From positions 9,188,779 through 9,252,778 of the forward strand of contig JAJEKV010000035.1 of NCBI GenBank assembly GCA_021234155.1: 64,000 bases of DNA. Reading direction: 5' to 3'. Below, in pieces: positions 1-56,451 of the stretch; the first letter of the stretch is position 1, and each line of letters opens with the position of its first letter. The notes under the pieces are model-generated. The model saw only the letters and a program-made list of their open reading frames with translations, was not told the origin of the DNA and ran no database searches. The position numbers and the translations under genes are program-made. The DNA is from Isoetes taiwanensis (Eukaryota > Streptophyta > Lycopodiopsida > Isoetales > Isoetaceae).

Positions 1-963
1 TGCACTTGTACATCCAAAGACCCAATGGCGTTGGCGGCTAGCTGGTGTTTTAACGATTGCAGCTTCAGACGATTCGGGCCGCCTTTTGTCATGTGAGGCT
101 TTTCAGACGAGATTTGCTATATAGATGGGGATCGGCAAACTGGCCGGGTGGCTGAGTTTTGCCATCCATCGTGGCAAAGAACCACGCAGTGATGTGCCTA
201 TTTGGATATGTGATGCACGCCTTAAGCCGTAAAAGTTTGTTTCTTCCACGCATGTGTCGCTTTTAGATTGTGAACCTCTTCCCCATCCCAAAGATCGGCA
301 TCTTCGTGTTCCTCAACCCACGGTGGAAAAGTGTTTGGATGTGGACATGGGATAAATTGCTCCACCCTAAAGTGTCGGTGACTGCGATGGCAAATTCTCC
401 ATAGATGTGTTCGGTGAATGTCTTGGTTCACAAGATGAACCCCAGAGTCTCAGATCGTTGCCCTCTCTGTGGCCAATGTGTTGAAACTATTGAACACTGC
501 TTCTTCTTGTGCGATCATCTACGACTTGCTTGGGAGTAGTTGTTCACTCTTTTCAGTGTGTCTCTCACTAGCCAGGAGATCCTACTTGCAGTTTATCCCC
601 CTGTTTGGCCTAACTTGCGTAAGTAGGCATTTCATCTTGCTTCTAGTTGGATTTTGTGGTCTATCTGGCAGAGGCAATGTTTTTGTATTTTCCAAGGTGC
701 ACACATCGCTGATCAGCAGCTTCTCCATTGTGCTCAGCAAAAGATCACTAAAGCTTATCGTTGCTCGTCTCTAGCTGATGATAAAAAGAGATAATTTAAG
801 GTGTGCACGTATTTACGGTGTTCTTCTTATGCATAGACGGGTGTTTTTGCCTAGTTGGGTCAGCCTATCCACTAGGGTTTTATTTCTGTCTGTGCATTGT
901 GTATTGTGCCTTTGTTCTTGTCAATAAAAAGAGCCTCACGTCCTTCAAAAAAAAAAAAAAAAA
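1..963 (+). mobile_element. LINE (non-LTR retrotransposon) 3' remnant with poly(A) tail
   Basis: This is the 3' end of a LINE ORF2. Around 355-520 the broken frames read LHPKVSV, then a Cys/His cluster (RCPLCGQCVETIEHC), which is the zf-RVT zinc-binding region that follows the reverse transcriptase in plant LINEs. The same region occurs in the better preserved LINE at 14930-16224. An AATAAA at about 922 is followed by a 17-base A tract at 947-963, the expected 3' end. The 5' part lies outside the window. Several stops and frameshifts make it inactive. A target-site duplication could not be tested. Confidence 0.75.
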
Positions 964-1016
964 TATTACAATTTTTCTCATGACGGTCTAGTCAGAGATT
1001 TGTTTTAGATGAAACT

Positions 1017-2345
1017 TACTATAATTCCACATGGCAAGTGCATCACAAATGGAGATATTACAAAGATGTAGTAGTACCACTAAATGCTAAGAGGATGCAT
1101 GCACATATAACAAGGAAAATCTAGGAGCGAGTATATCAGGTTAGTAGGTCATGAATTTTTTAAAAGGCATAGGAATACCTAAAATTGTCTCTTCTTTTAC
1201 GTTAAACATTACTCTAAATTATGCTCAAACAATAATAAGTTGTTAGAGTGGCTATGCTCCGTTAGCTACCATGACAGGTGGTTCTACCACCGATGCACTG
1301 GAAATCAAAAAGCTATTAGAGCCACTCAGCCCTATCAACTTTAGGCATGACAAAGGGGGTCCTACCCCGATGCCAAATTAAAATGAATGAAAGCTATTAG
1401 AGAGTTTCAGCCCCATCAGTTGTTAGAGAGGTTCAACGGATCAACGTAGTCTCACCACCGGTGCTACATTCAAGCGTAGCTTATAGAGAGGTTCAGTCCT
1501 GTCAGCCCCCACCTTGAATTGTGGATGTAACACCAAGATTCAAAAATCAAGCTATTAGAGTGGCACGGCCTTGTCAGGTTAATATTATTGTTTTTATGAT
1601 AACTTTTGATTCATAGCTCTGAAGGGGATTTTGCGGGTGAAAAAGGTAAAATTATAGTAGGATTTAGGTTTTTATTGCTTTTCAATGACTTGATAGTACA
1701 TTTTTTTCACGAATGTTCAACCAGAGCTCTATTTTAGGTGAAATTTGCACCAATGAAAAGTGTTTAAAGAGATCTCTAGAAGAATATCTAATTTGCCTGT
1801 GTTTGGTCAAGATTTGAGGGTAAAAACAACGAATTTATAGTCGGATTTGGGGATTTATTATTTCTCAATGAGTTAATATTACTTCTCTCATGAACGGTTC
1901 AACTTTTCTCATTACATTCTTTAGTAATTTTATTGCAAATGAAGATATAAAGAATGTAGCAGTACCACCAAATGCTAAAAGGATGCATACACATGTAACA
2001 AGAAAAATCTATGAGCGAATATATAAGGTTAGTAAGTCATGGAAGCTTTGAAAGGCTTTTTTTCACGTTAAACATTACTCTAACTTATGCTCAAACAATA
2101 ATAAGTTGTTAGAGCAGCTATATGCCCCATCAGCTACCAACATGACAAGCAGTGGTTCTACCACCTGCATTAATCAAAATCAAAAAGTCAAGTAGAGAGT
2201 TCAGACCCCGGCCACCTTTAGGCATGACGATTGGGATTCTACCCCCGGTGACAAATTAAAAATGAATGAAAGCTGTTAGAGAGGCTCAACCCCATCAACT
2301 ATTAGAGAGGTTCAGCGGATCAATGAGGTCTCACCACCGGTGTTA
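1017..2345. repeat. Direct duplication of about 430 bp (1040-1470 and 1930-2345)
   Basis: Two diverged direct copies lie about 890 bp apart. Each starts with a segment around AATGCTAARAGGATGCAT, then TTAAACATTACTCTAA, then CTCAAACAATAATAAGTTGTT, and ends with TCACCACCGGTG. Within each copy a short motif, GTTAGAGNGGYTCA, recurs several times. No coding capacity is seen on either strand. The first copy may be part of an unrecognised non-coding element that interrupts the LINE to its right. Confidence 0.7.
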
Positions 2346-2359
2346 AGCAATCTCAACAT

Positions 2360-2503
2360 TCAAGGGTTCCTTTTCGCTAGCCTCTTCACGGATCAAAGTA
2401 CGGAGCTCATTGCAATAGTTCGAATTTTATATAGGCGGTGCATCGAGGAAGGTGCTATGATTAAAGTGGCGTGGTCGGCGCATCCTTCCCAAATGGGCAG
2501 GTA
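2360..2503 (+). mobile_element. LINE reverse transcriptase fragment, left half of the LINE split by element 1
   Basis: A plus-strand frame reads FASLFTDQSTELIAIVR, then EGAMIKVAWSA. This matches the stretch of LINE reverse transcriptases just upstream of the conserved PK..GGLG motif. The frame ends as CCC-AAA-TGG-GCA-GG at the transposon boundary. The sequence on the far side of element 1 starts GGT-GGT-CTG-GGT (GGLGMMD). Together they give the uninterrupted LINE motif, so this is the upstream half of the LINE that continues at 14930. Confidence 0.7.
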
Positions 2504-2533
2504 ACCATCATTCAATTAAATTGGGTTTATGTC
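2502..2533 (+). repeat. Left terminal inverted repeat of element 1
   Basis: These 32 bp match the reverse complement of 14898-14929 at 30 of 32 positions and that of 63765-63796 at 31 of 32. The outer end begins TAACCATCAT and the inner end reads TTATGTC. The LINE frame stops immediately outside it. Confidence 0.85.
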
Positions 2534-2829
2534 TTAATTTTGGGACAAATTTCATATTGCATGTTTTTTAGTAGCATATTCAAATTCACACATTTCACCT
2601 CAAAATTATGAAAACGTAATATCATGTTATTTACAAAATAGTCAACATTTCATAATATAGCACCATATCATAAAAACGTGATAACAAAAATTTACATAGT
2701 TATTCAACTTTCTTCAAGCACCCCCAATGATATCATAGCCTTCTTCCCGACATCCCCGAGGTATTGTAATTCTCGTGATTTCTAGCTGGAATAGTGTTTG
2801 GAGTCCATGAGTACAAAACACTTTCATAG

Positions 2830-5582
2830 TCTAGCCAAAGATCAGGATCACTTTGATTTCTCCTCCATCTCTTTGTCCAACAATCGAAAGTGCACCTTTC
2901 TTTATCCCGACACGTTGGTCAACTGATGACCGACACCACCATTCCACCCGCACATGGTTGAAGTTAATATTACCTTCTTCTTTGCAAATATCGGAGATAG
3001 TGAACCCCAACCACACCGGATATGTATCTAAATCTGCTGGCTTTACTACCACAAATTGGTGGCATTCCAGTCGATTGGAAGGTTCATAAGCATCCATGCC
3101 TAGAAACTTTGGTCTATTGTTCTTAGGACCAACATAGTGTTTTGTCGGAAGGAGGAGGAGCATATTGCTTGCGAATGCTACTTATAAAGTGTCATCAAAA
3201 TCCTCAAAGACCTACTAAGGTCTTCCACCTAGTTTTAGGCAATCACCCTTCTTTCAATTCATCCGAGGATGTGTCTATCTCCCCCCAACAGGGTTAATCA
3301 CCTTCTTCCAGTAAGCCACCAAGGCATGGTTGGTGTGTCATCCGGATTGGTTTGCCAATGCTTTATATAGTCTTGGATTCCTTCCTTAGTCAATCCCAAT
3401 TGCTTCACTTCTTCAAGAGGGTTTTAAAGCTTTTGGTTGACCTAGAGGTATCATAGGCTTGCCATTCTCATCTCTACATGCCATATTTCTCCCCTCCCTC
3501 TCCACTCATCCTCTCAAGGTCTCATCTTCCATTGGAAGATTGGAATCCCATCTCTCACCCAAAAGTGAGCTCAGCAGAGGCCGGAATGACCTTCAAGATC
3601 CAATGTATAACCATCCACAAAGCTCTTCCAATCGGGCACTTCTTCTATGAGAGAAGCTATAGGGTTTGGAGTAGTGCATTCATGCAAGATTTCCATTAGC
3701 CTAGGAAAGTTGGTCACCGCTTGTCGCTTCAAGATACAACTATATTTGCCAAATAATGCATCCACATCCTCATGGGTATGCCCGCATAAGAAACCCTAAA
3801 TTAACTCTTTCAAATATCCCCACAAATTGTTAAGTAGGATAGGAAAGAAAACATCCACCGTTTCTTATTTGGCCAAAGACAATTATCAAGTTGCAAGAGA
3901 AACCTTTTGGGTAGATCTTGAGGTTTAGCACGTGAAGTTGAAGCTCCAACATGTTCATTAGACCCATGCTTCCTAAACCTTGCCTTGTTGAACTTTTCAA
4001 TATTGTTAGGGTTTCCATCTAACAATGCTCTATGTAGTGCCCGGCTAGTCAGAAGGTCCCTGGAGGTGACCATTGTATCCATTTTCATAGTTTCTCAAAC
4101 ACCTCATGATACTCCCAATATGAAAATCTGGACCATCACTCCACAATTCCAAACTAAAATGGCCATAGTAGGTTTGATTCGCCCATGCAAGATTGCCTTG
4201 ACCATTGAGACTGTGAAAGGGTATGATCTTCTACATGACTTTGGTATGTACTTGAATTGTGGAAGACAAGTCTTTTTGTTGGTCCATCTTGTCATGTATA
4301 ATACATAAATAGTTATTGGGTTCCAATGCGGATAAAGTCCTCCACATCCAATAACATGATCTACATGATAGTTGGTCACTCATATGGTCCTTCATATGCT
4401 CCCTTATCCTAGCCCTTTGACTAGGTTGCACGATCTTATCAAGAGTCTCCTTCAACTTAGCACATAAATTGCACTTTGCAAAGTTGTTTGAAGTTGCTAT
4501 GGTGACATGATTGAAATGCTTCTTCCATAACCTACTAAAGCTAGGTTGGGATATTGAAGAATTCCCAATTCGAAGTAGGGAATTCACTTCTTCCAAAATA
4601 CTCTTTTTGAGTACAATGTAATGGCAACCTTTTCTCAACAACCGCTTCTTCCCTTTTCATCCCTTCTACTTTTGTGTGGCATAGACTGCATTGAAATCAA
4701 TATATTTTTCAAATATCTCCCCGGCGTACCAAGGTCCTAGCTGTTGGTCTCAACAAACTATTATTTCCATGTAAAGCAATCCTGTTCCCCTCTCACTGCT
4801 TTTTGCCAATTATGCCATGAAGAAGTTGGAATTGCATGGATACTCTGCCATGCTTTTTGCACATATCCATTTGCCTAGCAAAGGGTATCTTTTTCCTGTT
4901 TGGGTTTCTTTCATCTTGAAGTGCATGCTCAAGATTGTGTACATGTAGGTCCTCCTCTCATCAACGGTGTACTCTTGAAAAGTGGCTCTTGCTTCCACCA
5001 ATTGTTCTATTGTAAAGAATTGCATACAAGCACTCAACAACAATCTGAGCCCCTAACCTTCACCATTGTCTCACGTTTGGTGTCACTATTCAACTTGGCT
5101 CTTTTGCTAGGATAATGTCTGGCAACTGATACTTCTCCCCTTTTGCCTAGGTTTAGAGTTCCAACTGCCAATGGATCAATATCAAGACAATCATTGTCCC
5201 CAACAACCTCAGGCTCTGGAAAAATATAATCCTCCACAAATTGAACACTACTTATAGGCCATGCCATGATGCAAGGAACCTCCAATTGCTTGACACAACC
5301 AAAACATTCCTTGTCACCCAAACCTTTACCTTTCCAGTTGTCTTCCAACATCGAAATTGCAATACCAATATTGTCTTCCCCTAGCCTTTCATCATTAACA
5401 GCTTGACCAGGATCTGCTAGCACAATGACTCCTTGGCCTACTATTTCCTTGTTGCACTTGTGCATGATTCTCACCTTCTTGTTCCTCCATTGCACCCTAC
5501 TATAGAGGACTAATTGTTTTTCTTTAACATTCTTGCTAGGAGTTGGTTTTTCATTGATATTGCTCTTTTCAATATGTTGCAC
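2830..5582 (-). pseudogene. DDE-type transposase (DUF7869-like), broken by frameshifts
   Basis: A leftward gene is recovered in several frames. The N-terminal part (5034-5582) is a low-complexity, Lys-rich region, followed by 4810-5043. The catalytic region has three acidic motifs in order: IIHDKMDQQK at about 4280-4305; LLQLDNC..PNKKRWMFSFL at about 3850-3897, the usual second-Asp block; and CGHTHEDVDALFG at about 3745-3787. A Cys pair (FAKCNLCAKLK) lies upstream of the first motif. The C-terminal part (2831-3163) ends with YPVWLG and VRVEWW blocks. As I recall, this motif set is that of DUF7869 proteins, which behave like transposases; the domain name is from memory. At least five frame breaks occur. 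Being beside the left TIR and reading outward-in fits a self-mobilising enzyme. It would cut and rejoin the element ends in the nucleus. Confidence 0.75.
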
Positions 5583-5888
5583 ACCATCTTGAGTTGGAGA
5601 GGCACCATTGACCTAGGCAAATTGCACCCTTTTTAGTTAATGAGTAGGAAAAAATTATTACACCATAAGATAAAAAAACGCATTACATTTATGGAATATA
5701 AATCAAATTTTTTTTAAAAGCAAGAAATTCCTTTGGAAATAGGTTTAATATAATAACAACAATGGGCGAACGAAATCATTTAAAACAAGAATTTTCGCGG
5801 GCAACAACAAGGAAATGATATTATCCTAATTTCAATTATAAAATTTGGATATATGATTACTTAAAAAGACATATAGCTGATGGATTTG

Positions 5889-6034
5889 AGAATTTATTAT
5901 CCATAATAATATACCCTAGATGATATAGTCATGGAATTTCAGATGCACCTGGCGTGTTATTTGAGGCAATAAATTATTCACGCTTAATTTCTAATTAACC
6001 CTATATAAATCCGGGTTCACGCCTCAAGACCTCC
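5889..6034 (+). promoter_or_regulatory. Promoter-like module 1 (TATA box at 6002)
   Basis: GAGAATTTATT is followed by a GCGTGTTA block, AATTATTCACGCT, a TATA box (CTATATAAATCC, 6001-6012) and, 6 bp later, CACGCCTCAA. The same order and spacing recur at 7094-7256. This suggests a duplicated rightward promoter of element 1. The site lies 5' of the leftward transposase gene, so it may be half of a bidirectional control region. Confidence 0.5.
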
Positions 6035-6061
6035 ATTCGGGTCCAATTTTTTTTTACGCCG

Positions 6062-6363
6062 CCATGAAGCTGTCAAGCCTCTCGCCTTCGAATTCATGAA
6101 GAACCCCAGGTCTCGCCAAAGAGACGCCGGGTTGAAGAACCCCTCTATTCTCCCCCCATAGATTTTTTTTTTGCCCAATTCTCCTTCCCGATTTCTCCTC
6201 CATGAAGAGGAGGAAGAGGAGGAATTGGATATGGAAGAGGAGGAGTTGAGCTCCTCCGATTCCTCCCTCGATGAAGAAGAGGAGGAGTTGGAGGAAGAGA
6301 GGAGATGGTCCTCTCAAGAGCACATGACAGCTCGCTTCTTCGTGGTTGGCTTCTCTGACTAAG
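6062..6363 (+). CDS. Possible small acidic protein downstream of promoter module 1
   Basis: An ATG lies 50 bp beyond the TATA box of module 1. The best frame (6171-6362) gives a peptide dominated by Glu runs (blocks such as EEEEEEELDMEEEEL and DEEEEELEEERR). Whether the upstream ATG joins it depends on one frame change near 6100. No family is recognised. The opposite strand also has an open frame (6054-6452) rich in Leu, Ser and Pro, but that is the expected shadow of a GAA/GAG-rich repeat. It could be simple low-complexity DNA in an untranslated leader. Confidence 0.25.
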
Positions 6364-7093
6364 CAAAATGAGAATGAAAATCTCAAGAGGAGGAGGAGGA
6401 AGAGGAGGAGGAGGCGAGGGAAGCAGATGAGGGAGGAAGGCTCCACAACCACCGCTTTTTAGAATGGTTGAGAGATGAGCCAGTTTGCATGTTTTTTTTT
6501 TTTTTCACCTTTCTTTCTTTTCTAACACCTTTCTTTCTTCTTTGTTGCGACGTGGAAGATCAATGATGCATCCCAGGCGGCCCCTTTTTTGTTGTTTTTG
6601 CCACGAAGCTTTGGACACGCCCCAGGGCATTTTTTTTCCTGTAATTTTGTGAAAAGCCTTGGGCAAATTTTGCCATAAGCCTTCGGGCATCTGTACACAT
6701 TCTCCTCTTATGAATGAAATCAAACAAGTTTTTATCATAAAATTTTTTTTCAAACTTGTTGTTCTTGAGCGCTTTTTTGTACATAAAATTATTTGAATTA
6801 AATTCAACTGTTTTCTCCAATTATTTTGTCTCAAGTCATTTATCTCTAAAATTTTGTATAAAATTTTGTCTCAACAAAGTCTCGGGAACACTATAAATCA
6901 ACCACATGAGAAATCTCTCGATTCATCACAAGAACCATAGGAAATTTTCCTATAATGACCTAAAAACAATTCCCCAACCCTTACAAGTCATTTTTAGCCT
7001 TGATAATTTTGCCTTAAAAATCATTTTTAATTTAGCCTATATAAAATTTCTAAATTCTATTTTTTCAATGCAATAAATGGAATAAAATGTCAT
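6364..7093. other. Non-coding spacer within element 1
   Basis: T tracts (6491-6505), GA-rich and AT-rich sequence. A 109-codon minus-strand frame (6505-6834) has no recognisable domain and no support from element 2. Nothing else is seen. Confidence 0.5.
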
Positions 7094-7256
7094 GGAGAAT
7101 TTATTGCATGAAATGCAATATTCTCCATATATACCATATACATGTCATGTCCGGGAGGAAGACCGTGATGCCGCGTGTTAATTCAAGCAATCAATTATTC
7201 ACGCTAACTTATTTCTAATTATGCCTATAAATCCATTTCACGCCTCAAAGTTCCTA
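7094..7256 (+). promoter_or_regulatory. Promoter-like module 2 (TATA box at 7223)
   Basis: A second copy of the module at 5889-6034: GAGAATTTATTGCATG, then GCGTGTTAATTCAAGCAAT, AATTATTCACGCTAA, the TATA box CCTATAAATCC (7223-7233) and CACGCCTCAA (7239-7248). Downstream is a short ATG (7291) followed by TTGGTGAGTG, which resembles a splice donor. No protein of useful length can be followed further. Confidence 0.5.
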
Positions 7257-7878
7257 CATTTTCTTCCTTCCTTCATAACGATTTGGTTCTATGCTTCTCA
7301 TTGCCTTTGATCCGCCCTCCAAATCTTGGTGAGTGATTTATATTCAAAGAATGTTAGATGTTTGGTTTTGCAATTCTAACTTACTAAAAGACCTTTTGTT
7401 CTCAGAAAGCATCCATGAGTGAGGACATCTGAGGCTCAGAATTAAAACCAAAAGCCGAGGACTAAGGCGTGTTAATAAAAGCCTCTAATTAAAACCACAA
7501 GCATAATCCTCCGTTCTTCTAATCCTTCCAAAACCTCGAACTCAAGGTTAGTTTTCATTTAGTTTTAAGTTTCATCTCAATGGGGGTTTAATCCAAGAAG
7601 ACAAGCTTTTGCATTTGCTCGGTAGGAGGAAGCGATGATGTTTATGAAAACCAGAATAGTTTTTATAAACTTCATCCGCTTCTTTATTTAGGCAAATTTT
7701 GAGTTTCTCTTCCGAATTAATCATGCTATTGCATGCCAAGTTTCTATTATGAATAAGTGTAGTAGAAAGCATTAGAAAAATCAAAGATAATATTGGAAAA
7801 CGCTTAAAGATAATATTTGAAACACGCTAAGCGTGTTTTATGCTAACCTTTTAGCCTTCAACATGAATACGTTTCGGT
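7257..7878. other. Spacer downstream of promoter module 2
   Basis: No convincing coding sequence. A 70-codon minus-strand frame (7572-7784) is unsupported. A palindrome AACACGCTAAGCGTGTT at about 7826-7842 resembles the CACGC...GCGTG palindromes in the introns of the cargo gene. Confidence 0.4.
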
Positions 7879-8036
7879 GCACTCGGCGAGAGAGGAGAAA
7901 AAAAAAACGTACGGATAGATATTAAAATAGATAAAGGCCAGACAATTATTTTAGCGTGTAAATAATTGCCTGGCCTTTATCTATTTACTTATCTATCTGG
8001 CATGTGTTTTTTTTTTTCCTCTCTCACGAATGCACG
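7879..8036. repeat. 158-bp near-perfect hairpin (foldback)
   Basis: Two arms of about 70 bp are inverted copies. The left arm runs from GTGCACTCGGCGAGAGAGGA to AGATAAAGGCCAGACAATTATT; the right arm is its mirror, ending CCTCTCTCACGAATGCAC. The loop is about 14 bp (TTTAGCGTGTAAA). The arms contain A10/T12 tracts. It lies between the leftward and rightward gene groups. It could be an inserted MITE, a structural terminator or a functional cis element. No counterpart is seen in the retained part of element 2. Confidence 0.8.
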
Positions 8037-8216
8037 GAAAGCATGTAGTTTTTTTCCTATATAGCGGTTTTTACACGGCGTGCAAACAATTTTATCCCTA
8101 GTTTCAACTTTTTACGCTAAAACGCGCGCGGTCTCTTAGTTTCTAAGTTTATATAAATAAATAAATATAACACGCCAGCGTTGAATACTGATACTCCGCT
8201 CACTTCCTATTGATAG

Positions 8217-8856
8217 ATGCCAAGTTACATTAATCACCCGGTTGGTGACGAAGATGCATTGGAATTACATTTGGGCCAGCAATCACACAGCCCAGCTCCA
8301 GTTTCGGCTCCAATCTCCAGTCCGGTTTGAACGCTAAAATAGAGCACCAGTCAAATTGAGCACCGGTCTTGCAACCTGGAGAGTACTTGGATCAAGTAAT
8401 GATGATGGCGCAGAGCGCAGTGGCAATGATAGATCTGGGCTCGGGGCCCTTTGGGCAACCGCCGAGGTCGGCCCTCTTATCTAATCACCGAGAATGCAAG
8501 TACATGCATTGATCGAGAGTGAATCTCGCGATCCGGCCACCGAGATTCAAAATGAGGAGTTTGCGGTTCTTAGTGGTTAGCCTCTATGCCCGGATGCCCC
8601 AACACTAACCACTACCACAAAGCGGTATAATGATGCAATGGAGATGGCTCAACCAATGGAACCACTACCGCAGGCGCTATACGATGCATTGGAGGTTCAA
8701 CCAATGGAGCAAGAGGAGGAGCAGGAGGTGGAGCAGGCGGGGGAGGTGGAGCTAGAGCCTGGTGTTTTTGCTGGGGTTCTACCTGATCAGTTCACTATGC
8801 CCATCTATGGAAATGGGATTATCGATAGCCCAGCTACTCAAGAGGATCGGGCTTGA
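8217..8856 (+). pseudogene. Hypothetical Pro/Glu-rich protein of element 1
   Basis: A TATA-like GTTTATATAAATAAATA at about 8148 is followed by ATG at 8219 (MPSYINHPVGDEDALELHLG...), a Pro/Ser stretch, then a frame change. The reading is recovered at 8638-8856 as an acidic segment (MEQEEEQEVEQAGEVELEPG) ending with FTMPIYGNGIIDSPATQ. Two frame breaks separate the parts. I recognise no family. It lies between the hairpin and the leftward conserved ORF. Element 2 has no surviving equivalent because its left part is lost. Confidence 0.4.
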
Positions 8857-9011
8857 AACAAGAAGCAGGATTTTGTGCGGTTTATCCGGTTTATCCAGAT
8901 TATATACAATTGTAAACTTTTTTCAATGAATACAACAAATTTTGTCTACTTCTATATTTCTACAATGTAATACATGTTACATACCTTTTTTAAGCGGTTT
9001 CTTGGCCATGC

Positions 9012-9420
9012 AACAAATGTTCCAACACTTTCTCCAACCGTATGGGGGTGTCTGCGCGAGGTAAAGCTTCATCCATAGCGCGGCGATTAATCATTGTAAC
9101 TTCGGACATACTTATCCCCGGCGGAATTCCATGGCGGTTTTACGGTCGGATCGATGGAGTCGATCTTGCATAATCCTACTTTCCTTTTCGATTTGTAGTT
9201 AACATGAAACATTCATCTTCGACACCTTGAGAAAATTGCTATTCGAACACCTACTATTGGAAATTAATGTTCAAGCTATTGGAATGAGATGAGTACGCAT
9301 CTCATAGCCATTCTTGAGAAGCTGATTTGAGTCTAAGAAGCTGATTTGAGAAGTGAAGAAAGCTATGGAAACTTCTGGCGATTGGGAAAATTCGAATTAG
9401 AAGAAAGATTAGGTTAACTA
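9012..9420 (-). pseudogene. Conserved leftward ORF of unknown function (element 1 copy)
   Basis: Minus-strand frames give EDECFMLTTNRKGK, VGLCKIDSIDPTVK, HGIPPGISMSEVTMINRRAM and a C-terminus ending LLHGQETA. The same blocks occur in order in element 2 (43300-43703) as EECYLLTAHLKRR, VGLCKVKDLNPS and HGVPLGNSFCKISIINSNYED. Protein-level conservation with differing nucleotides argues for a real gene. At least three single-base frame changes break this copy. It sits just upstream of, and divergent from, the ParB-like/FCP1-like gene in both elements, so the two may share a promoter region. No known domain is recognised. Confidence 0.6.
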
Positions 9421-9548
9421 CGTTTAGAAGCGGGATAAATTTGGCGGGATACTTTTGGGTAGATTGGTTTTAAAAAACTTAATGAAAGAAGTCGTGGACG
9501 GGTCTTCCGTCATTATTATTTGTATGTGTCAAGAATATTTAAAGGCGC

Positions 9549-10235
9549 ATTTTGTGTTTTCTTGAAATTCAAATTTCTCTATTTCGTCTGCGGGTAGAAA
9601 AAGCTATTTCTTGGCGGCTTCGGCCGTATCGGCGACCTTCCGACTCTGTTACTAGGCGATTCAGAGATGTCTTCATGAATCGAGGTCGAGGGACGGTTGA
9701 TGCAGGGAAGCGATGGAAGAGGAATCTCTAAACCGGCTCTTCTCAAGTTTCGAGGGCGTTGATTAGAATACCACGAGAATACAGAACCCTATTCAAGGTA
9801 TTTAATTTGCCACGTAGAATACACCTTTGTGTGGAGAGTATTATGCTTGCATGAATTTGAGATATTTCCTTGCCTTAGGTTAATATGCTTTGCATGAGTT
9901 TGAGTTATTATGCTTTGCTTGAATTTTAAGTATTACCATCGGTTAATGCTTTCGATTGTCCGATTCGTAGAAACATAATTTTTTGCTTTTTATATATAGA
10001 ATATAGCGGTGTTATACAGATTGGAGATAGCAATGTTCAATGAGGTTAAATAGTGTGAAATATGGATTCATGAAGGGTATGTAGCTTAAAATGTGGATGC
10101 AAAATAATTTAGTTTCAAATTCACATAGCATGGTCAATAATAGGAGCTACCAACATGCCAAGCGTGATTTGTACTAATTTAGGTTTAAATACCGCAAGCG
10201 TGATCTCTTATTCTGAAAAGTACTCTAAAAAGTGC
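9549..10235. promoter_or_regulatory. Divergent upstream region and likely 5' leader of the cargo gene
   Basis: The leftward ORF and rightward cargo gene diverge here. TATTTAAAGGCGC at about 9537 is a possible TATA box for rightward transcription. A short ATG at 9666 is closed after two codons. From about 9800 to 10220 the sequence is AT-rich and intron-like. Two half-palindromes, GCCAAGCGTGATTT (about 10159) and CGCAAGCGTGATC (about 10190), match the intronic palindrome series. Confidence 0.35.
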
Positions 10236-10797
10236 TCATCTTCTTTTGCGGTGCTCAAGAGGAAGAAAACCCCTCATAATTCGGGTTCTAATCCCGCAAA
10301 GCAAGGGCTGACGACCGGATGCAGTACCATATGATCTCACCTTAGATGATGAAGGGCGATTCTTATAGCAACCCGCCACCACGCCTCGCCCTGAAGAGGA
10401 AATGGGCGAGGGTGCCGAGTGGTACGTTGACCTTGCCAAGACAAAATGGCAAGCTTCGACTTAACTCTCTTCTCGAGGAAAAGGAAGCGAGACAAGATGG
10501 CCAAACAAAGGGATCCTAATCTCTTGTGAGGAAGAGGATGACACCAGCGCAAATTGCTCTTGGAGATTACATGGCGAAGAAAGATGCGCTCGGACTTACT
10601 CTTTGTAGAGCTCGCATACAAGGATCACGTTCATGAAGGCAGATGTGAGCGGTGAGACATGTTTTTAAGTATGGTTGGCCAACCAATGTAGCGATTCACG
10701 CCAATATCTATTTGCCAAGGGGTTACAGTATGCGTAGAGGCATGTTCACTAAACCGACACCAAGTCACTATTTGCGACAAGCTAGGATTTAGCTGAC

Positions 10798-11392
10798 TTG
10801 AAAGCTTCTAAGAGGGTCCTAGATCTAGGGAAGGATGTTCAACCTGCAGTTGTCGAAGGCATGGAGGCTTCTGTTTTTGAGAATGAACAGGACAGAGTGG
10901 CGCAGCTAGAGGCCATGAACAAGCTGAATAAATACTCTGACCATTATCCATTGGGTCTTAAGGAAACTTTTGCGATCCATGTGAAGTCCCTCATCCGTTC
11001 ACCAAGCTCCATTTATGTTAGCAGAAGATATGATCCAGCACATGCCATGGAGATTGTTCAGAGCATGATTAGTAATCCAGGTCAAATGCCTATGCCAGCG
11101 GATGTGCTACCTTGGGATATGATCTCGAACAAGCCTGCTGTGTGGACGAACTTCCAGGAGATATTGTTAAATGAAAATATTAAATTCGTCGTCATCGACG
11201 GGCAGCATTCTGTTGAGGCACAGAAGGCCCTCATCAGGCAGGCAGAACAAACAGGCCAAAAGCAGCGTTCTACAAATCACTATGCGCGTATAGGAGGTGT
11301 CATTATGTTGGATGCCAATACTTCACCTGCAGATTTGGCTGAGATTAGTGCAACTTTGAATGAAATGGGGAAGACATTTCTATACAAAAGGT
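10798..11392 (+). CDS. ParB/sulfiredoxin-like (DGQHR-type) domain exon
   Basis: An open exon of 198 codons ends at a splice donor (AAAAG|GTAACT). Its first in-frame codon, TTG at 10798, is not a translation start; the frame is entered from upstream. Residues 66-103 read SPSSIYVSRRYDPAHAMEIV, then ISNPGQMPMPADV. Residues 131-143 hold VVIDGQHSVEAQK. This resembles the ParB N-terminal/Srx fold: an initial N/S-x-x-R block, 'I..xGQ..P..V', then D-G-x-H-R/S-x-x-A. In that fold the DGxH or GxxRxxA loop contacts nucleotide. The exon is far more conserved between the two elements than the surrounding introns, which suggests purifying selection. The homology is inferred by motif only; a profile search would settle it. 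Confidence 0.65.
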
Positions 11393-11427
11393 AACTAACT
11401 GCATTAGGATGTTAGCATGTTAATATT

Positions 11428-11692
11428 CACGCCAGTCGTGCTTTCATTTCAATTGAATTCACGCTGGCATACGTTTTCATAAATTGAATTCACATGGCGT
11501 GTTTTCAAATCAATCGAATTCACGCCAGGCGTGTTTTCAAATCAACCTGGTTTCATAAATTGTATTCACGCCTGGCGTGAATTGGTTTGATTTGAAAGCA
11601 CGCCTGGCGTGAATTGCATTAGTAACTTTATTCATTTCACGCCAGGCGTGATTTTTCTCTTGATCAATTCTATTCAAATCGCGCCCGGCGTG
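11428..11692. repeat. Array of eight palindromes, core CACGCCWGGCGTG, in the first cargo-gene intron
   Basis: Perfect or near-perfect 13-bp palindromes start at 11428, 11459 (half site), 11491 (2-bp deletion), 11521, 11567, 11599, 11638 and 11680. Most are 30-46 bp apart and are separated by AAATCAATTGAATT-like spacers. The array fills most of the intron (11393-11732, acceptor CTATTGCAG). Related sites occur in the second intron, in element 2, and 10-20 bp inside both right TIRs. Confidence 0.85.
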
Positions 11693-11732
11693 TTTCTATT
11701 CTATGATACTGATTCAATGTCTGTACTATTGC

Positions 11733-13342
11733 AGTCCATCATTGGAACAAGCTGCGCCCTTTAGATCAACGATGGGTGGAATATGGCTGCCCATTACCCA
11801 CCGCGAGTATGGTCAAAGTCCGAGGCATTCAAGGCTTCCGGAGCCGGACTCATCGCAGGAACAATTATCTGAGGAGAAGAAGAAGATTGCAAGAAAATCA
11901 AAGAAAAAGGTGGTGATGACATTGCAGATCCTTAAAAGCTCATCTAGCGTGTCGGGACCATGAGCACTTCATTATAAGATTGTGTTTTGTAAGGAGGCAA
12001 AAGATGGCTCAAGTGGAATGAATGGTGGGGCGCTTATGCACAAGGGAAGGCCGGATACTATGGGTAGGGTGCCTCCTGTTGATGTAAGCATCTTTGACTT
12101 GAATGTGAGGAGATGAGAAAGACTTCGGGGGGCTAGACGGCGGCCGAGACCATTTGGGTTTTAGACCGATTAGCTTAAAGAAGGAAGTCTTATACAAGAA
12201 GAGTGCTTTCACTAAGGATAGGATGTCCTTAGTTGAGTGCCGCAAACCATGTGAAGGATGTGCGTTACAATGAAGTCACGGTTTGGAGCCGAAGTTACAA
12301 AGGCTATCGGGGGATGTGGCATTATCTGAAATTGGATTTTTCGGACAAATACAAGGTCAGTAATGATGACATCAAGAAGTTTTGTATTCTGGTCAAAGGA
12401 CTTCCTAAAGAATTGGAAGGCTAAAAATACAAAACATAAGGAGACTCTACCCCTAAAAGGCACCGGCGAAGTTGAGAAGAAAAGTGGCCCTTGTGAAGAA
12501 GATTACTGGAGAAGACGGCGCTGTCCCAAAGAGTCTCCATTGGGTACAAAAGGTCTCTTGCCGAATCAACCGGCCTTAAAAATATATTACTCTTTGTGTT
12601 GGACAGGGGGTGGGAGAGGAGATATGGGCATGAACAGAGGAAGGACTACTGGCGGCTTCTTTACCAAATGTATAGGATTGACAAGCTGAGAGATCCTTCA
12701 CTATTGTCATCGTTTGTCCTTGGTGTGAGTCACATCGCATGCACTATCCGCTGCTCATGATCTGGAGTGCCTCAAAGTTATTAGGGAGGGATGCCTAATA
12801 TATGATGTTAAGGATAATGAGCTGCGAACAGCACGGAAGATGGCACATGTGATCTTCATTATGATAGCCATGCTATCAGACGATGAATATGATATTGCTA
12901 AGGCCAAGGGGTGACAATAGCGGTGCATGGGAATGTTTTCTTCTAGATGATCGGACTTAAGAACTATATTCTTTCATACGGATCAGGATCGGTCGAACGG
13001 GATGAGTCGAGGAAGAGGATGAGGATGGGACCCCTCCTAAGTGGGGAAATCAAGCACTGAGCTACAAACTAAGGAGAAGGGGCCCTTAAATAAAAATGGA
13101 TTTCCGTCTATGGCTGCTTACCTCGTCGGGGCATTTGCTCCAATTGATACAACCTCGCTTGGAACTTCATGTTGGAGGTTATATTGCCCGAGAGGCTCTT
13201 ATGGGTGCAAGGAGATGTCCTTTGCTTTTGTGAGTGATGAGCAGGCCAAAGACTTTCTTGAACCATTCCTCATGCATGTGCTTGCCAAGTCTCCTAAAGG
13301 CCCTTATGGCAACATGAAATCATCAGCAATCAAAAGTCTGTA
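11733..13342 (+). pseudogene. Middle exons of the element 1 cargo gene
   Basis: Blocks shared with element 2, in order: RWVEYGCPLPT (about 11770-11805; element 2 QWIEYGKPMPT); WLKWNEWWGAY (about 12005-12040) and GRVPPVDVSIFDLNV (about 12065-12112; element 2 GKFPPVDTSIFDLHV); KYKVSNDDIKKF..VFWSKDF (about 12350-12410; element 2 KYNVSNDDLKKYVFWSKDF); ALSAAHDLECLKVIREG with IMIAMLSDDEYDIAK (about 12735-12912); and SFAFVSDEQAKDFLEPF with SPKGPYG (13222-13312). The function is unknown. The order and spacing support one gene. At least four frame changes occur, several beside runs or CAG/CTG sites. Confidence 0.6.
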
Positions 13343-13960
13343 GACTTGTCCAATTCGAAAGTGGACGTTGCTTCGGTGAGGGACCTAGTGTCTGCTGACG
13401 ATAAGGAAAGCGGTAATGAACAAATAGGCGCTAAACGGGCTGCTCAAAGTACTGTGATGGCGCGAACTTAGGGAATATTTTTGCCCACATTGCGGGTGAT
13501 GCAAGCAACAATAGAGTAGATTCACGAGGTTAACAATGAACTAATTGGCGAGTGGAAACCGAAAATGAAGGCAACGAAGGCGGCTCTAGTGATTCACAAG
13601 TTTGCCAAATCAATAGTAAAATAATGTCGGTTTGTGAAGGACGCTTGTTGAACTAATAGAAAATAACAATTCTAACAAATGTAAGAAGACGAAGATTAAG
13701 GGTGGCGAAGAAGGGGAGAATGCGCCGGCGATGGCCGTGGCGAAGATGATAGGTATGGCCTTGCCCACTAAATCGCGTCACGCGTGATTTAATTTGTATT
13801 ACCTTTGAATTAAATCGGCGCCAAGCGTGTTTTGATTATTTTTCGTTGTCAAACTAAATCCGCCAGCCGATTTGATTATGACTATTTCAAATCACGCTTG
13901 GCGTTTGTATTGTTTGTGTTATCGTATCTTGCTGACCAGGATACATGTTTGATGTTTCAG
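13343..13960 (+). other. Linker region and second palindrome-bearing intron
   Basis: 13343-13740 corresponds to the acidic linker of element 2 but is frame-scrambled here. The following intron (about 13750-13960, acceptor GATGTTTCAG) contains TCACGCGTGATTT (about 13778), GGCGCCAAGCGTG (about 13815) and AATCACGCTTGGCGTTTG (about 13890), members of the palindrome series. Confidence 0.5.
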
Positions 13961-13961
13961 C

Positions 13962-14597
13962 TTCCATTGCGTTTCTAAGAAGGTTGTGGTGTTCGACCTA
14001 AACGGAGTCCTTTGCAAGACTTTTCCGAAAAATAAAGTGGCTAGAGAACAGTTTCATCAGACACCAGTAGAATCAAACACCAAGTGGATCTATCCGCGGC
14101 CGCACTTGAAGGAGATGCTAGATGAGGCATTCAGGTTATTTCGAGTTGGTATTTGGTCATCCATGGAACTAAGGAACATCAAGGATACTTTGGAGGCACT
14201 GGGGGAAATGCATAGACATTGGTTGACCTTTTGGGATCAGAACAAATGTGTGAAGTTCACTAATCCCAAGGATCCAACAGGCAAGCCTATCTTCATCAAA
14301 CACTTGAGTAACATGATGGACGAACTTGGTATCGAGAATAAGGATGATATAATCATAGTGGATGATGATGCTCTCAAATGCTTCTACAATCAAACACAGG
14401 TCCTGAATCCACCATCTTACGATCCAAAAAACTTTGCGACAGATGATTTTCTGGTGAAGTTTGTGTCTATTATGCATAATTTGGCTATGGGGATGACGGT
14501 GGGTGAAGTGTTAGATTCGTACCCAGAACTGGATAGGACGGCTGACATGGAACCACACCTTGTTAAATACGTGGAAAAACATGGATTGATCCCTTAA
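13962..14597 (+). CDS. FCP1-like HAD phosphatase-type domain (C-terminal exon)
   Basis: Open exon to a TAA stop, 204 codons from the first block (KKVVVFDLNGV). HAD motif I is F-D-L-N-G-V (residues 3-8 from GTG 13986), motif II is IWSSM (56-60), the motif III Lys is in PIFIKHL (about 105) and motif IV is VDDD (125-128). WDQNKC (83-88) and NPPSY (141-145) match the plant FCP1/NIF-like subfamily. The canonical DxDx(T/V) has Asn in place of the second Asp, as some plant family members do from memory. That Asp is the usual general acid/base, so activity may be lost or altered. The C-terminus (VGEVLDSYPELDRT) is also conserved in element 2 (VEEIQTLYPLLDRT). This is probably a captured plant gene. 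Confidence 0.8.
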   Translation, partial: FHCVSKKVVVFDLNGVLCKTFPKNKVAREQFHQTPVESNTKWIYPRPHLKEMLDEAFRLFRVGIWSSMELRNIKDTLEALGEMHRHWLTFWDQNKCVKFTNPKDPTGKPIFIKHLSNMMDELGIENKDDIIIVDDDALKCFYNQTQVLNPPSYDPKNFATDDFLVKFVSIMHNLAMGMTVGEVLDSYPELDRTADMEPHLVKYVEKHGLIP

Positions 14598-14897
14598 TGT
14601 TTTATTGTTATATATGATATTTTTGTATGATATTTGTGCCATGTATCGATAATTTCGAGTCTGGAATTGCCTCGCAAATAATGCAGTCTGTTATTATCAA
14701 ACCTAATATTATCATCTATCGAGCAAGCAATTTTGGTCTCATCTATGTTAGCAACTTGCTCTTCATTTTTGCATATTTGAATTCGCATATGAAACGACGT
14801 CACACGTGAATCGCAACCTTATGTTATTTTTGAAAAAAGATTAAAAAAAACAAAAACCCCCTAGAAGACAATAGCAGGTTGGCGTGATTTTGGAGTT
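14598..14897. other. 3' flank of the cargo gene inside element 1
   Basis: AT-rich, non-coding, with a likely 3' untranslated region. GGCGTGATTTTGG (14881-14893), just inside the TIR, is shared with element 2 (GGCGCGATTTTGG). No equivalent of the extra ORF at 63262 is seen here. Confidence 0.5.
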
Positions 14898-14929
14898 GAC
14901 ATAATCCCAATTTAATTGGATGATGGTTA
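14898..14929 (-). repeat. Right terminal inverted repeat of element 1
   Basis: Reads GACATAATCCCAATTTAATT and ends TGATGGTTA at 14929. It is the inverse of 2502-2533 with two mismatches. The LINE frame resumes at the next base. Confidence 0.85.
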
Positions 14930-25904: not shown

Positions 25905-26230
25905 TATAACATTCTAGATAGTTCAAGAAAGTTCTAGAATGTTCTGGAGGCTCTAGAAAGTTCCAAAATCTTCTAGAATGTTCTAGAAAGTTCCAGAATA
26001 TTCTAGAATGTTTTGGAATGTAAGAGAATCTAGGGGGAATCTAAGAGAATCCTTCCAGAAAGTCCCAAATTGTTCTAATAAGTTCTAGAATGTAGGGGAA
26101 TCTTCGGAAATGTAAGGAAATAGGGAAATACTTCCAGAAAGTTCTAGGATGTTTTGAAAGTTTCAGAATGTTCCAGAAAGTTCTAGAATGTTCTAGAAAT
26201 TTCTAGAATGTAAAGGAATCCAGGAGAATT
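25905..26230. repeat. Array of TTCnnGAA motifs (heat-shock-element-like)
   Basis: Many near-contiguous units of GAAnGTTCTAGAATGTTC occur, including exact three-unit nGAAnnTTCnnGAAn matches (for example around 25980-26015). The units look like expansion of a roughly 10-bp palindrome (TTCTAGAA). It lies in the 3' spacer of the gypsy element. Confidence 0.7.
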
Positions 26231-27452
26231 AAAGGGAATATAAGGAAATCTCATAAATTGTAAGAGAATGTAGAAAAATATTTATAAGTCTGACGGAATC
26301 TCTTAAAATCTAGTTGAATCTAAGGGAATCTTCATAATATCTAAGGGAATCTAGGAAAATCTTGATGAAATCTAAGAGTTTTTTTTAAGATTTTGCAAAG
26401 AGCCACAATAGAATGTTCTAAAATGTTTCATAATAAAGGTGTACAATATAAATCTTGAAAAAAAAATGTTCTAGATGCTCAGGGCAAGCGCCTCAGTCTA
26501 AAAATCGAAAGTGTTTTAGAAATGTTGCACAGATCCAAAATAGATTATTTTGGAAGGTTCTAAATGCTCATGGGTAAGCACCTCAATCAAAATAGAAAAT
26601 TCTAAGAGAATCTAGGGGAATCTTCATGAATGCTAAATATAGTACATAGAATGTTGAAGAATATAGAGGAATCACAAGAGAATCTCAGTAGAATCATTGG
26701 TTATCTAGAGCACGACAGGGCCGTGCCCCATAAGAACATGCTAAAACTAGAACAATGTGCCGTAGGGCGCATTAAATTTCTTGTAAAAATATACACATAT
26801 AATATTATTACAACATATTTAGGAGTTCATAGTTAGTCTAAAATCTATGACTCCTATCTTCTCGTAACGTGCTCCCTCCTTCATGCTTCCCTTCACTGGC
26901 CTGCACAAGTAGCACATTACATTATATAAGTTAATAAGTTTGTGGTTTTAGGGGACCACCCCCCTAATTACCTCCTTGAGCCGAACTACTAGCTCAAGGT
27001 TACCCTACTACCTTGCACTCGATCATGGCCCCATAAGGATTTGAGCTTAAGGACCATTTAAGATGATCCTATCATTGCCCATGATCAAGTGCTACCTTGT
27101 ACTCGATTCCTGTGGTCGAGTACACCCCAGTGCATCATGCCCCGAGGGTTTCAAGCTAGGGAACGTCTCACGATCCCATCATCGCGCATGATCACTTATA
27201 CCTCACCATGACCCCCCTATGGTCAGGTGCGCGTTCCCCGCATCGTGGCATAGAGAGCATCCGACAGATGTCCCATCATCGCCCACCATGCCTCACTTCC
27301 TCTCTCACATGACCCTACTGGTCATGCGCACCTCTTGGTGCGTGTTGGCCTAGAGAATGCCTTAGGGGCGTATCCCATCATCGCCTACACGTTCCAAGAT
27401 TCTGGCACTTGCACTCTACTAGCTAGAATGCACATGCCACCACTAAGGCTAA

Positions 27453-43887: not shown

Positions 43888-44369
43888 TTGAACCAAAACT
43901 CCAGTCTCATAACATATTTTTCGAACTTGCAGTTCTATGGCCATCTGAAAGATCTAGCAGCCGCAGCCGAGACGCAGGTAGAGGTGGGCGACATGCCAAA
44001 GCAACCCAGGATCTTGCTGAACAAGCTGAAAGCACTAATCCAGCTAGAGGCTCAGGTATTCATCAATTTTTTTCTTATATATTTTGTTTCTGTGTCTTTC
44101 CTTTTGTTAGGTTTTTAGGATGTTTTTCTTTAATAGTAGAGTTATTATCCGCTAAGAAGCATATGTCCTCTAATACTTCAGTTCATATGTCCCAAAATGT
44201 ATGCAAATATATGCTATGACGAGATATATTTATTTTATTGTTGGATGTTTCTTCATGTTGTGTTTTTGTTCAATTTTGTATCCGCTATTTTTAGTCTTGT
44301 ATAGTTAGTTGAACAGTCTTATGTAGTTAGTTGTGCCAGTCTTACAAGTAATGATGACAAGGCCATGTA

Positions 44370-44781
44370 GTTGGAGGCGATGAGCAAGCTCAAAAAATAT
44401 GCTGACAAGCATCCACTGGGCCTTAACTTCACCCATCGAATCCACATCGATTGGCTTTTCAGGTCCACTAAAGCTATTTATGTCAGTAGAAGGTACGACA
44501 AGTAGCACTCCTTGAAGATAGTGAACATCATGATCGAAAATCCAGGGCAGATGCCAATGCCAGCAGATGTAGAGCCTTACGATACGAAGACAAGAAAGGT
44601 ACTCATGTGGAACAAGATGGAGGACTTCATCGATAACCAGGACGTACATTTCATGAGAATAGATGGCCAACACTCAATTGAGGCTCAGAAGATTCTGATT
44701 TGGAAGGCACAGAATACTAGAAATCAGTTGTTCTATAGGCTGTTCAGAGCCTCTTTTGAAAGCAGTCTCTCTTTAGAGTAG
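44370..44781 (+). pseudogene. ParB-like domain of element 2
   Basis: Reads LEAMSKLKKYADKHPLGL, then AIYVSRRYD, a TAG, then IENPGQMPMPADVEPYD and MRIDGQHSIEAQKIL. It aligns throughout with element 1 residues 37-149, keeping the R-R-Y-D, PGQMPMPADV and DGQHS-EAQK motifs exactly. About 45 codons present in element 1 after this point are replaced here by a hairpin of intron-type sequence. Conservation of the motif residues supports a functional ancestor. Confidence 0.65.
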
Positions 44782-44866
44782 GCAAATCGCGCCTAGCACG
44801 ATTTCCATTCTATTCTGAAATTGCGCCAGGCGCGATTTGCCTACTCTGAAAAGAGACTGCTACCCA
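44761..44866. repeat. Hairpin containing the cargo-gene palindromes (element 2)
   Basis: The arms AGCAGTCTCTCTTTAGAGTA and its inverse (ending GAGACTGCT) enclose AAATCGCGCCTAGCACGATTT (44784-44804) and ATTGCGCCAGGCGCGATTT (44819-44837). These match the palindrome series of the element 1 intron. An extra AGCAGTCTCTTTTCAGAATA copy follows at 44871. Confidence 0.75.
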
Positions 44867-45086: not shown

Positions 45087-45636
45087 CATTAGGGATTTTT
45101 TGAGATCATAAAAGGGCCTTCTAAGAACTGCTGACTAAGCTATATGAACTACCAATCAGAAAACAGAACTGGTAATCCAGTCAGCAAAACAGTTATAACT
45201 AACACACTGGATCACATTTTCTAGCATAAGTATTGATAGAAAAGTCCAAATGAGCTCTTGTTTGGTGCAATAGATAGATCTCATTGAGATCTTTCCAATC
45301 TTGGGTGGTTTGCATATCTTTTAGCCCCGTAGGATAGTAAAAAATGGTAAAAACCATATTTTTTAGAGTTTTGACAATCATAAGTGGTTAAAATATGTGC
45401 AAAGCACCTAAGGTTGGAAAGATCTCAATGAGATCTATCTATTGCACTAAACGAGAGCTCATTTGGACTTTTCTATCAATAGTTATGCTAGAAAATGTGA
45501 TCCAGTGAGTTAGTTATAACAGTTTTGCTGACTGGACCCGTCAGGCTCTGATTTCTGATTGGTAGTTCATTTATCTTCATTTGGCTTAGTTGGCATGTTT
45601 TGAAGGCCCTTTTTTAATCTAAAAAAAACCCTAATG
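45087..45636. mobile_element. 550-bp foldback/MITE-like element in a cargo-gene intron
   Basis: Almost the whole unit is an inverted repeat. It starts CATTAGGGATTTTTTGAGAT and ends with the inverse, ACCCTAATG. Inner arms such as GATCACATTTTCTAGCATAA and AAGATCTCAATGAGATCT pair across a loop near 45350. It encodes no protein. No clear target duplication was found. Element 1 lacks it, so it arrived after the copies separated. Confidence 0.75.
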
Positions 45637-45729: not shown

Positions 45730-46061
45730 GACCAGGTCTGGGGAAATGGAATGAATTCTGGGATGCCTATATGGAGAAGAAGTTGTCTGATTCACAAGGC
45801 AAATTTCCTCCTGTCGATACATCAATATTCGATCTCCATGTCACAGAGATGAGGAAGGCCCAGGGATTGGAGGATGAAGAACTGATCTCAGTTCTGGACA
45901 AGTGCATCAGAAAGGAAGTCCTTTACAAGAAATGTTTTGCAACAAAGGACAGGGAATCATTTGAAGACGCCTGCGACTAACTAAAAAATATTAGAGTGCT
46001 CAAGAAGGCAGTTGGAGAGGAATTACAAAGGCTTGCAGGGGAGTGGTCGTTGTCGGAGCAA
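45730..46061 (+). pseudogene. Cargo-gene exon of element 2 (WNEFWDAY / PPVDTSIFDLHV block)
   Basis: Reads LGKWNEFWDAYMEKKL, GKFPPVDTSIFDLHVTEMRK, ELISVLDKCIRKEVLYKKC, one TAA, and LQRLAGEWSLSEQ up to the LTR junction at 46062. Element 1 has the first two blocks at about 12005-12112. Acidic/basic alternation suggests helices, but no domain is recognised. Confidence 0.6.
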
Positions 46062-48869: not shown

Positions 48870-49163
48870 CTAGGACTAATGCAAAAATACAACGTCTCCA
48901 ACGACGATCTGAAGAAATATGTTTTTTGGTCGAAAGACTTTGTCAAACAGCAGAAGTTGAAAAACGTTGCAAACCTGAGAGGGATTCACACGAAAGTGGC
49001 ATCCGACTTGAAAAGAAAAGTCGCATTGGTGAAGCAGACCCCGGAGGAAGAATCCACATTCTTTTACCAAGTGTCCACTGGTTTTAAATGTGTAATGCCA
49101 GATGTGGATAAAGGACCCCACGATATCACACTCTTCATGCTTGATAGCCAAGGCACCAGATGG
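48870..49163 (+). pseudogene. Cargo-gene exon of element 2 (KYNVSNDDLKKYVFWSKDF block)
   Basis: Open frame from the LTR end: LGLMQKYNVSNDDLKKYVFW, SKDFVKQQKLKNV, then KRKVALVKQTPEEE, CVMPDVDKGPHDITLFMLDS and QGTRW. It is interrupted exactly at GATGG (49159-49163) by the gypsy. Element 1 equivalents lie at about 12350-12640. The reading past 49163 belongs to the LTR. Confidence 0.65.
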
Positions 49164-56330: not shown

Positions 56331-56451
56331 AACACATGCATTATAGCATCCTTCCAAATCGGAATCCTCGCTCCTCCTTTATACACCTCTATGGTGTTGA
56401 GCAAACTAGCTCAAATCTGCTAGCCATGAAAAATTGCTCACGATACCACTT

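Follow-up and report, generated by a model that had tools for sequence, protein, structure and literature searches.

The 64,000-nucleotide stretch of Isoetes taiwanensis DNA analysed here (the window; contig JAJEKV010000035.1, positions 9,188,779 to 9,252,778 of the forward strand, assembly GCA_021234155.1) contains a 12.4-kb element at 2502-14929. This element belongs to an abundant family of two-gene DNA transposons that are bounded by terminal inverted repeats (TIRs) and equipped with a DUF7869-type transposase. The element consists of 32-bp TIRs, a leftward transposase gene and a rightward gene of three exons, called gene 2 here, and both genes are broken by frameshifts and stops. We infer that gene 2 would encode a self-recognition factor made of a ParB-like module and an FCP1-like domain. 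The joint reading, that this is an abundant two-gene family in which the gene 2 protein binds palindromes, marks its own copies and aids their transcription or escape from silencing, is in our judgement evenly balanced between right and wrong.

The family was traced through the assembly (1,658,258,908 bases, 1.66 Gb) with a 20-mer of the TIR, which is not expected by chance. At up to 2 mismatches, it was matched 1,986 times in the forward and 1,990 times in the reverse orientation, compared to 4 and 9 times for the reversed control. Twenty sites were chosen by the TIR alone among the exact matches listed; 12 adjoin a transposase end, 7 adjoin a gene-2 end, and 1 is ambiguous (C279:284367), having the end sequence of the gene-2 type but more TIRs and a transposase just inside. 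Three of the 12 transposase-side sites, all on contig C2, resemble one duplicated locus. All five closed TIR pairs (the window, C85, C115, C297, and C512) carry both genes, with C512 read at its two ends only and with two gene-2 stretches in C297, which may be composite. Every closed pair is flanked by a 2-bp target duplication, GG on both sides of the window element and GT, AC, TT, and AA for the others, and five such matches would have a chance of about 1e-6 if the flanks are independent. Neither of the two findings that the initial annotation had named as refuting its view came up: no TIR-bounded copy without the cargo was present among the five closed pairs, and no host gene of identical exon structure was encountered, no search having been aimed at short cargo-less derivatives or at such a gene. 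More complex arrangements of element ends were also encountered. At L027, a gene-2 end of type B (185-5500) is followed in tandem by one of type A (5614-10000) that points the same way, and both have a TIR of their own, and at L021 (8443-9887), three TIRs (two of the transposase type and one of the gene-2 type) lie within 1.5 kb as nested or stacked element ends.

Four established groups were considered for the placement of the family and rejected. CACTA/EnSpm elements have CACTA-type termini, whereas the termini here read TAACC..GGTTA, and Sola elements have a target duplication of 4 bp and not the 2 bp found here. A KDZ transposase model is present in Pfam, but the Pfam scan of the transposase pieces led to DUF7869 without any KDZ match. 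The duplications GG, GT, AC, TT, and AA also differ from the TA that is general in the ITm (mariner-like) superfamily, as stated in the available part of the source (PMC10045372).

The transposase gene is decayed, with its parts in different frames, but its three acidic motifs, HDKMD, QLDNC, and GHTHEDVD, follow each other in this order along the gene. When we put the pieces together by frame, the joined query matched the Pfam family DUF7869 (PF25273) at 1.7e-20 with 73.8 bits against a cut-off of 26, and two single pieces also matched (4.1e-06 and 2.4e-13; 27 and 50.6 bits). The initial annotation of this stretch had described both the 32-bp TIRs and a leftward transposase with these ordered motifs, and these descriptions proved correct, with 1 mismatch in each TIR. 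DUF7869 is hugely expanded in this genome, with 9,902 first-look candidates, all 150 of those scored exceeding the Pfam cut-off, and some copies lie in open frames of 780-987 amino acids. The domain was found in 0 of 14 control genomes. Viral contigs searched with one transposase piece yielded no relatives, and no paper naming DUF7869 was found in the literature searched.

In the copies read, gene 2 has three exons of about 400, about 650-680, and about 215 amino acids. The DGQHS block in exon 1 is invariant in all eight rows of the exon-1 alignment (A3), and motifs of the DGQH type are typical of proteins with the ParB/DndB fold. Pfam DndB was matched by seven of the eight exon-1 sequences, with a best E value of 0.0013, and a PHROGs search of exon 1 gave a ParB-like family at 0.11. 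Viral contigs searched with alignment A3 contained no relatives. An FCP1/NIF domain was matched within 13953-14597 at 9.5e-15, with 55.1 bits against a Pfam cut-off of 21.8. Exon 2 gave no convincing match in searches of Pfam, NCBIfam, PHROGs, and PDB; its AlphaFold model had a mean predicted local distance difference test (pLDDT) score of 30.9 and was not used, and alignment A1, containing misaligned fragments, was not used for structure either. Thus, of the DGQHS motif, the ParB-like nature, and the FCP1-like domain ascribed to the rightward gene from the outset, the motif and the FCP1-like domain are confirmed, the latter by the profile search, while the ParB label depends on DndB and other matches that stay under the threshold.

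Gene 2 is widespread and often open. A genome search with exon 1 gave 4,369 candidates; 150 of them were scored, all 150 matched, and many are open over about 400 amino acids. A search with exon 2 gave 5,979 candidates, of which 89 were scored, many being open over at least 600 amino acids. The ratios of nonsynonymous to synonymous substitution rates (dN/dS) between subgroups, obtained by the simple counting of Nei-Gojobori on copies that were picked for open frames and are thus biased against stops, were 0.047 and 0.059 for exon 2 (the two pairs whose dS is finite) and 0.11-0.19 for exon 3, and those for exon 1 were 0.10-0.22 with the exception of L031-L032 at 0.40; dS was saturated in the other between-subgroup pairs. 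Within subgroups, the ratios were 0.27-0.66. The values between subfamilies show purifying selection on gene 2, and the overall pattern is the one to be expected if gene 2 works during the transposition of a lineage and decays after insertion. The initial annotation had held the cargo to be a native accessory module rather than something acquired by chance, and this view is borne out, because many copies have open gene-2 exons and these exons are under purifying selection between subfamilies; both genes also stand together in all five closed pairs. Its own argument, drawn from two diverged copies in the window, is weaker than claimed since the second copy is without a transposase. That gene 2 is part of the standard equipment of the family is supported.

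Elements of the family contain the palindrome AAATCRCGCCNGGCGYGATTT, clustered in their non-coding parts. It comes in two words according to the protein subfamily, CACGCCNGGCGTG (type A) and CGCGCCNGGCGCG (type B), with the arms CACGCC or CGCGCC. A single base pair in each arm distinguishes the two words, and both are commonly flanked by AAAT and ATTT. In intron 1 of the window element, CACGCCNGGCGTG occurs four times exactly and two more times with one mismatch, and the same intron contains inverted repeats. With the type assigned by protein subfamily, 17 elements or element parts, 12 of which are gene-2 halves and not whole elements, had 90 own-type sites at up to one mismatch, compared to 5 sites of the other type. 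None of the 17 is devoid of own-type sites, and the 90 sites are distributed as 0 in 66,575 bp of homology-defined coding DNA and 90 in the remaining 70,995 bp, introns included. This count leaves out the second gene 2 copy of the window, C512L, L024, and L025, which belonged to an earlier, control-paired count; two sites of its own type, at 1 mismatch, are present in the second copy of the window. The controls, 59 kb from outside the elements (11 kb of which was from Escherichia coli), contained no palindrome at up to one mismatch and one at 2 mismatches. Across the genome, with full palindromes counted on both strands, the type-B 17-mer was found 941 + 933 times and its reversed control 0 + 0 times, and places listed at C139, C170, and C116 adjoin exon-2 matches. 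A half-site also lies just inside the gene-2-side TIR, as GGCGTG at 5/5 type-A ends and as GGCGCG at 9/14 ends of the other kind, and none was seen at the transposase-side TIRs.

We propose a self-recognition factor because the protein subfamily and the palindrome word changed together, because the sites avoid coding DNA and cluster in gene 2, and because VANC and its motifs are laid out in this way in the VANDAL elements of Arabidopsis. The gene 2 protein would bind the palindromes through its ParB/DndB-like module, and this binding would mark the protein's own element copies. The bound protein may then aid transcription or escape from host silencing and perhaps also transposition, since a half-site adjoins one TIR, while the FCP1-like domain would act on, or dock to, the transcription machinery. 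A ParB-family module together with clustered palindromic sites is also what makes up bacterial ParB-parS, although the word here is a different one and the setting is a eukaryotic transposon. A more specific mechanism along these lines would have the module load on the 21-bp palindromes, spread over the copy, and bring the FCP1-like domain to RNA polymerase or the silencing machinery there, such that a subfamily sustains the expression of its own copies only. Protein and palindrome would have changed their specificity jointly, through a single base pair in each arm. We regard this version as tentative and somewhat unlikely.

The closest known systems are VANC, which is similar in logic, and the ParB-plus-methyltransferase genes of algae, which are similar in domain content, and the element fits neither as tested. 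In the available part of the VANDAL report, VANC motifs are found in introns and in intergenic and terminal non-coding DNA and differ from family to family, and as here, a factor encoded by the element goes together with short, repeated, non-coding motifs that differ between related families (PMC5735166). On the other hand, the VANC21 motif is YAGTATTAY and not a GC-rich palindrome, VANC bears DUF1985/DUF287, neither of which is among the Pfam matches of the scanned gene 2 sequences, and binding and demethylation have been shown for VANC (PMC5735166, same part), whereas binding by the gene 2 protein is a prediction. The accessory gene of Sola1-1_Ec32 from Ectocarpus, which has relatives in red and green algae, also lies in a giant TIR transposon on the strand opposite the transposase, and its protein likewise has a ParB-like domain and a length of about 1,100 amino acids (PMC12477816, available part). 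It contains a DNA methyltransferase domain, which is not detectable here, where an FCP1-like HAD domain is found instead, and no palindrome array is mentioned for it in the same part of that report (PMC12477816), in contrast to the arrays described above. The fungal Plavaka elements that bear TET/JBP are similar in being DNA transposons whose accessory enzyme presumably targets epigenetic marks and in having 2-bp (or 3-bp) duplications, but the enzyme is a dioxygenase and the termini are TGT..ACA or CATCA..TGATG, according to the available part of the source (PMC12730594), as opposed to ParB/HAD and TAACC..GGTTA here. Among the papers listed by a literature search on ParB- or FCP1-bearing transposons, only the Ectocarpus paper was relevant, and the present element was not encountered in the literature searched; Repbase was outside this search, which does not in itself show novelty.

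A number of our observations weigh against the self-recognition proposal. The DndB scores, at 12.8-17.2 bits in the tables shown, fall short of the 29.1 bits set as cut-off by Pfam, no ParB came up when PDB was searched with an exon-1 profile, and the AlphaFold model of exon 1 (mean pLDDT, 38.7) was too poor for use. The first HAD motif is FDLNG in all six readable copies (the two in the window, L032, L034, L038, and L039). The catalytic motif of FCP1/NIF-like HAD phosphatases is DxDx(T/V), with the second Asp expected in an active enzyme, and phosphatase activity of the gene 2 domain is doubtful because its first motif reads DLNG. None of the copies read is open in all three exons. Five of the 17 elements or parts have a single own-type site, the sites in arrays are partly duplicates, meaning that the 90 sites are not independent events, and the labels of C85, C115, C297, C512R, and the two L027 halves were written after the first palindrome count, with the protein type of these units still readable. 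No clean half-site is present at five (L004, L012, L018, L021, and L038) of the 14 ends that are of the other kind. Finally, the transposase or a host factor could be what binds the palindromes, or these could act as RNA hairpins.

It is unlikely that the transposase itself binds the palindromes and that gene 2 has some other role such as target choice or DNA repair. Sites bound by a transposase have a precedent in TNPA of En/Spm, a half-site adjoins a TIR, and the joint presence of both genes in the closed pairs means that co-occurrence cannot tell which of the two proteins reads the word. However, the half-site was seen only at the gene-2-side TIRs, and the arrays are mainly in the introns of gene 2. 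Even less probable is a purely structural role, in which the palindromes form hairpins in the gene 2 pre-mRNA that aid or regulate splicing without any protein reader. Many of them are in introns 1 and 2, and the inverted repeats of intron 1 would suit such a role, but palindromes are also found upstream of gene 2 and a half-site is found beside the TIR, and the conserved AAAT..ATTT flanks, together with the change of a single base pair in each arm, better fit a word that is bound than a generic hairpin. The FCP1/NIF domain is widespread in eukaryotes, which would make it conceivable that gene 2 was taken up from the host and only travels with the element, but its presence in 5/5 closed pairs, the open exons in many copies, and the low dN/dS between subgroups make this highly improbable.

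A different alternative concerns the middle part of gene 2, which is possibly, although in our view not probably, a worn-down beta-class DNA methyltransferase descended from the algal ParB-plus-methyltransferase accessory proteins, in which case gene 2 would recruit or block DNA modification. When the middle part was aligned by hhalign to nine methyltransferases (E. coli YhdJ and eight phage enzymes), the best local match fell at the stretch that had been predicted beforehand, with a score of 23.5 (P, 0.035; probability, 1.5%) compared to 13.1-16.7 for five single E. coli control proteins. Yet reversed methyltransferases scored 28.0, at another place, and 23.5 was reached by 6/196 column-shuffled queries and by 1/198 shuffled targets. 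The catalytic motif of beta-class methyltransferases is of the DPPY type, and none was seen in the middle part, for which there was also no methyltransferase match in Pfam, NCBIfam, PHROGs, or PDB and whose model has the low pLDDT of 30.9 given above. The layout speaks in favor of such a descent, the ParB-like part coming first and the gene lying on the strand opposite the transposase as in the algal genes (PMC12477816, available part).

How transposons evade host silencing and yet spare the host genome is understood mechanistically in few systems, with VANC as a plant case. The present family would add a second candidate. Its DNA-binding module is of another kind, its palindrome is defined, its two natural specificities are one base pair apart in each arm, and each exon is open in many copies, which makes the self-recognition idea directly testable in vitro. 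If the idea is true, the ParB-like accessory genes of algal transposons would extend to a plant host and to a new effector domain. The family also gives DUF7869 a biological setting.

The positions of all parts of the element, and of the second copy of gene 2 in the window, are collected in Table 1.

Table 1. Parts of the element at 2502-14929 and of the second gene 2 copy, in window coordinates
Feature	Position	Strand	Basis or remark
Left TIR, transposase side	2502-2533	+	1 mismatch to 32-nt form; left flank GG
Decayed transposase gene with DUF7869 core	2831-5612	-	motifs and Pfam; relatives in closed TIR pairs
GHTHEDVD motif	3783-3760	-	transposase gene
QLDNC motif	3893-3879	-	transposase gene
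HDKMD motif	4296-4282	-	transposase gene
Palindrome CACGCTAAGCGTG, between genes	7823-7835	.	2 mismatches
Third open frame between transposase gene and gene 2	8217-8841	+	frameshifted in window
Degenerate palindrome upstream of gene 2	10154-10166	.	2 mismatches
Gene 2 exon 1, ParB/DndB-like module (putative)	10318-11390	+	open from 10786; open relatives about 400 aa
DGQHS motif in gene 2 exon 1	11197-11211	+	motif reading
Gene 2 intron 1, main palindrome array inside	11391-11734	+	GT-AG ends, frame kept
Palindrome type A	11428-11440	.	1 mismatch
Palindrome CACGCCAGGCGTG	11521-11533	.	exact
Palindrome CACGCCTGGCGTG	11567-11579	.	exact
Palindrome CACGCCTGGCGTG	11599-11611	.	exact
Palindrome CACGCCAGGCGTG	11638-11650	.	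exact
Palindrome with one arm of each type	11680-11692	.	1 mismatch to A and to B
Gene 2 exon 2, middle part of the protein	11735-13700 (end approximate)	+	frameshifted here; other copies open over at least 600 aa
Degenerate palindrome in intron 2	13893-13905	.	2 mismatches
Gene 2 exon 3, FCP1/NIF-like HAD domain, motif FDLNGVL	13961-14597	+	Pfam match
Half-site GGCGTG beside right TIR	14881-14886	.	sequence reading
Right TIR, gene 2 side	14898-14929	-	1 mismatch to 32-nt form; right flank GG
Second copy: gene 2 exon 1 part, type B	44335-44718	+	52% identity
Second copy: two type-B palindromes in intron 1	44788-44834	.	2 and 1 mismatches
Second copy: gene 2 exon 2 part	48864-49154	+	homology
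Second copy: further gene 2 exon 2 part	61120-61392	+	homology
Second copy: type-B palindrome in intron 2	62264-62276	.	1 mismatch
Second copy: frameshifted gene 2 exon 3 with FCP1/NIF-like domain	62336-62935	+	36-57% identity
Second copy: half-site GGCGCG beside right TIR	63749-63754	.	sequence reading
Second copy: right TIR	63765-63796	-	0 mismatches

The second copy had been thought to start at 43310 and to keep the gene order of the first. Its gene 2 pieces and right TIR are indeed present, but the gene order is not confirmed: between 15 kb and the end of the window, the transposase pieces gave no match better than E 0.24, no left TIR of this copy is in the window, and nothing was found that marks 43310. 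Apart from the three TIRs in Table 1, the window contains no further TIR at up to 10 mismatches. The palindromes of the second copy had likewise been described as kept, and they are of another type. In the window, the second copy is not a full element but consists of gene 2 pieces among repeat-bounded inserts and a right TIR.

Several repeats lie within the second copy. The stretches 46060-48869 and 51420-57242 end in direct repeats of 97-100% identity and are long terminal repeat-like by position, and a 98% identical duplicate in the exon 2 region (49327-49390 and 60733-60796) has its two copies 11.4 kb apart. At 45176-45536, there is a 178-nucleotide inverted repeat, 89% complementary with a 5-nucleotide loop, that resembles a miniature inverted-repeat transposable element, and a tandem repeat of six copies with 47-48-bp spacing occupies 46674-46951.

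The third open frame between the two genes of the element was also seen elsewhere, at L029:863-1489, where it is open over 209 amino acids, and at L021:1910-2531 on the reverse strand. Elsewhere in the window, a long run with a 10-bp period and seven registered copies is found at 25908-26255.

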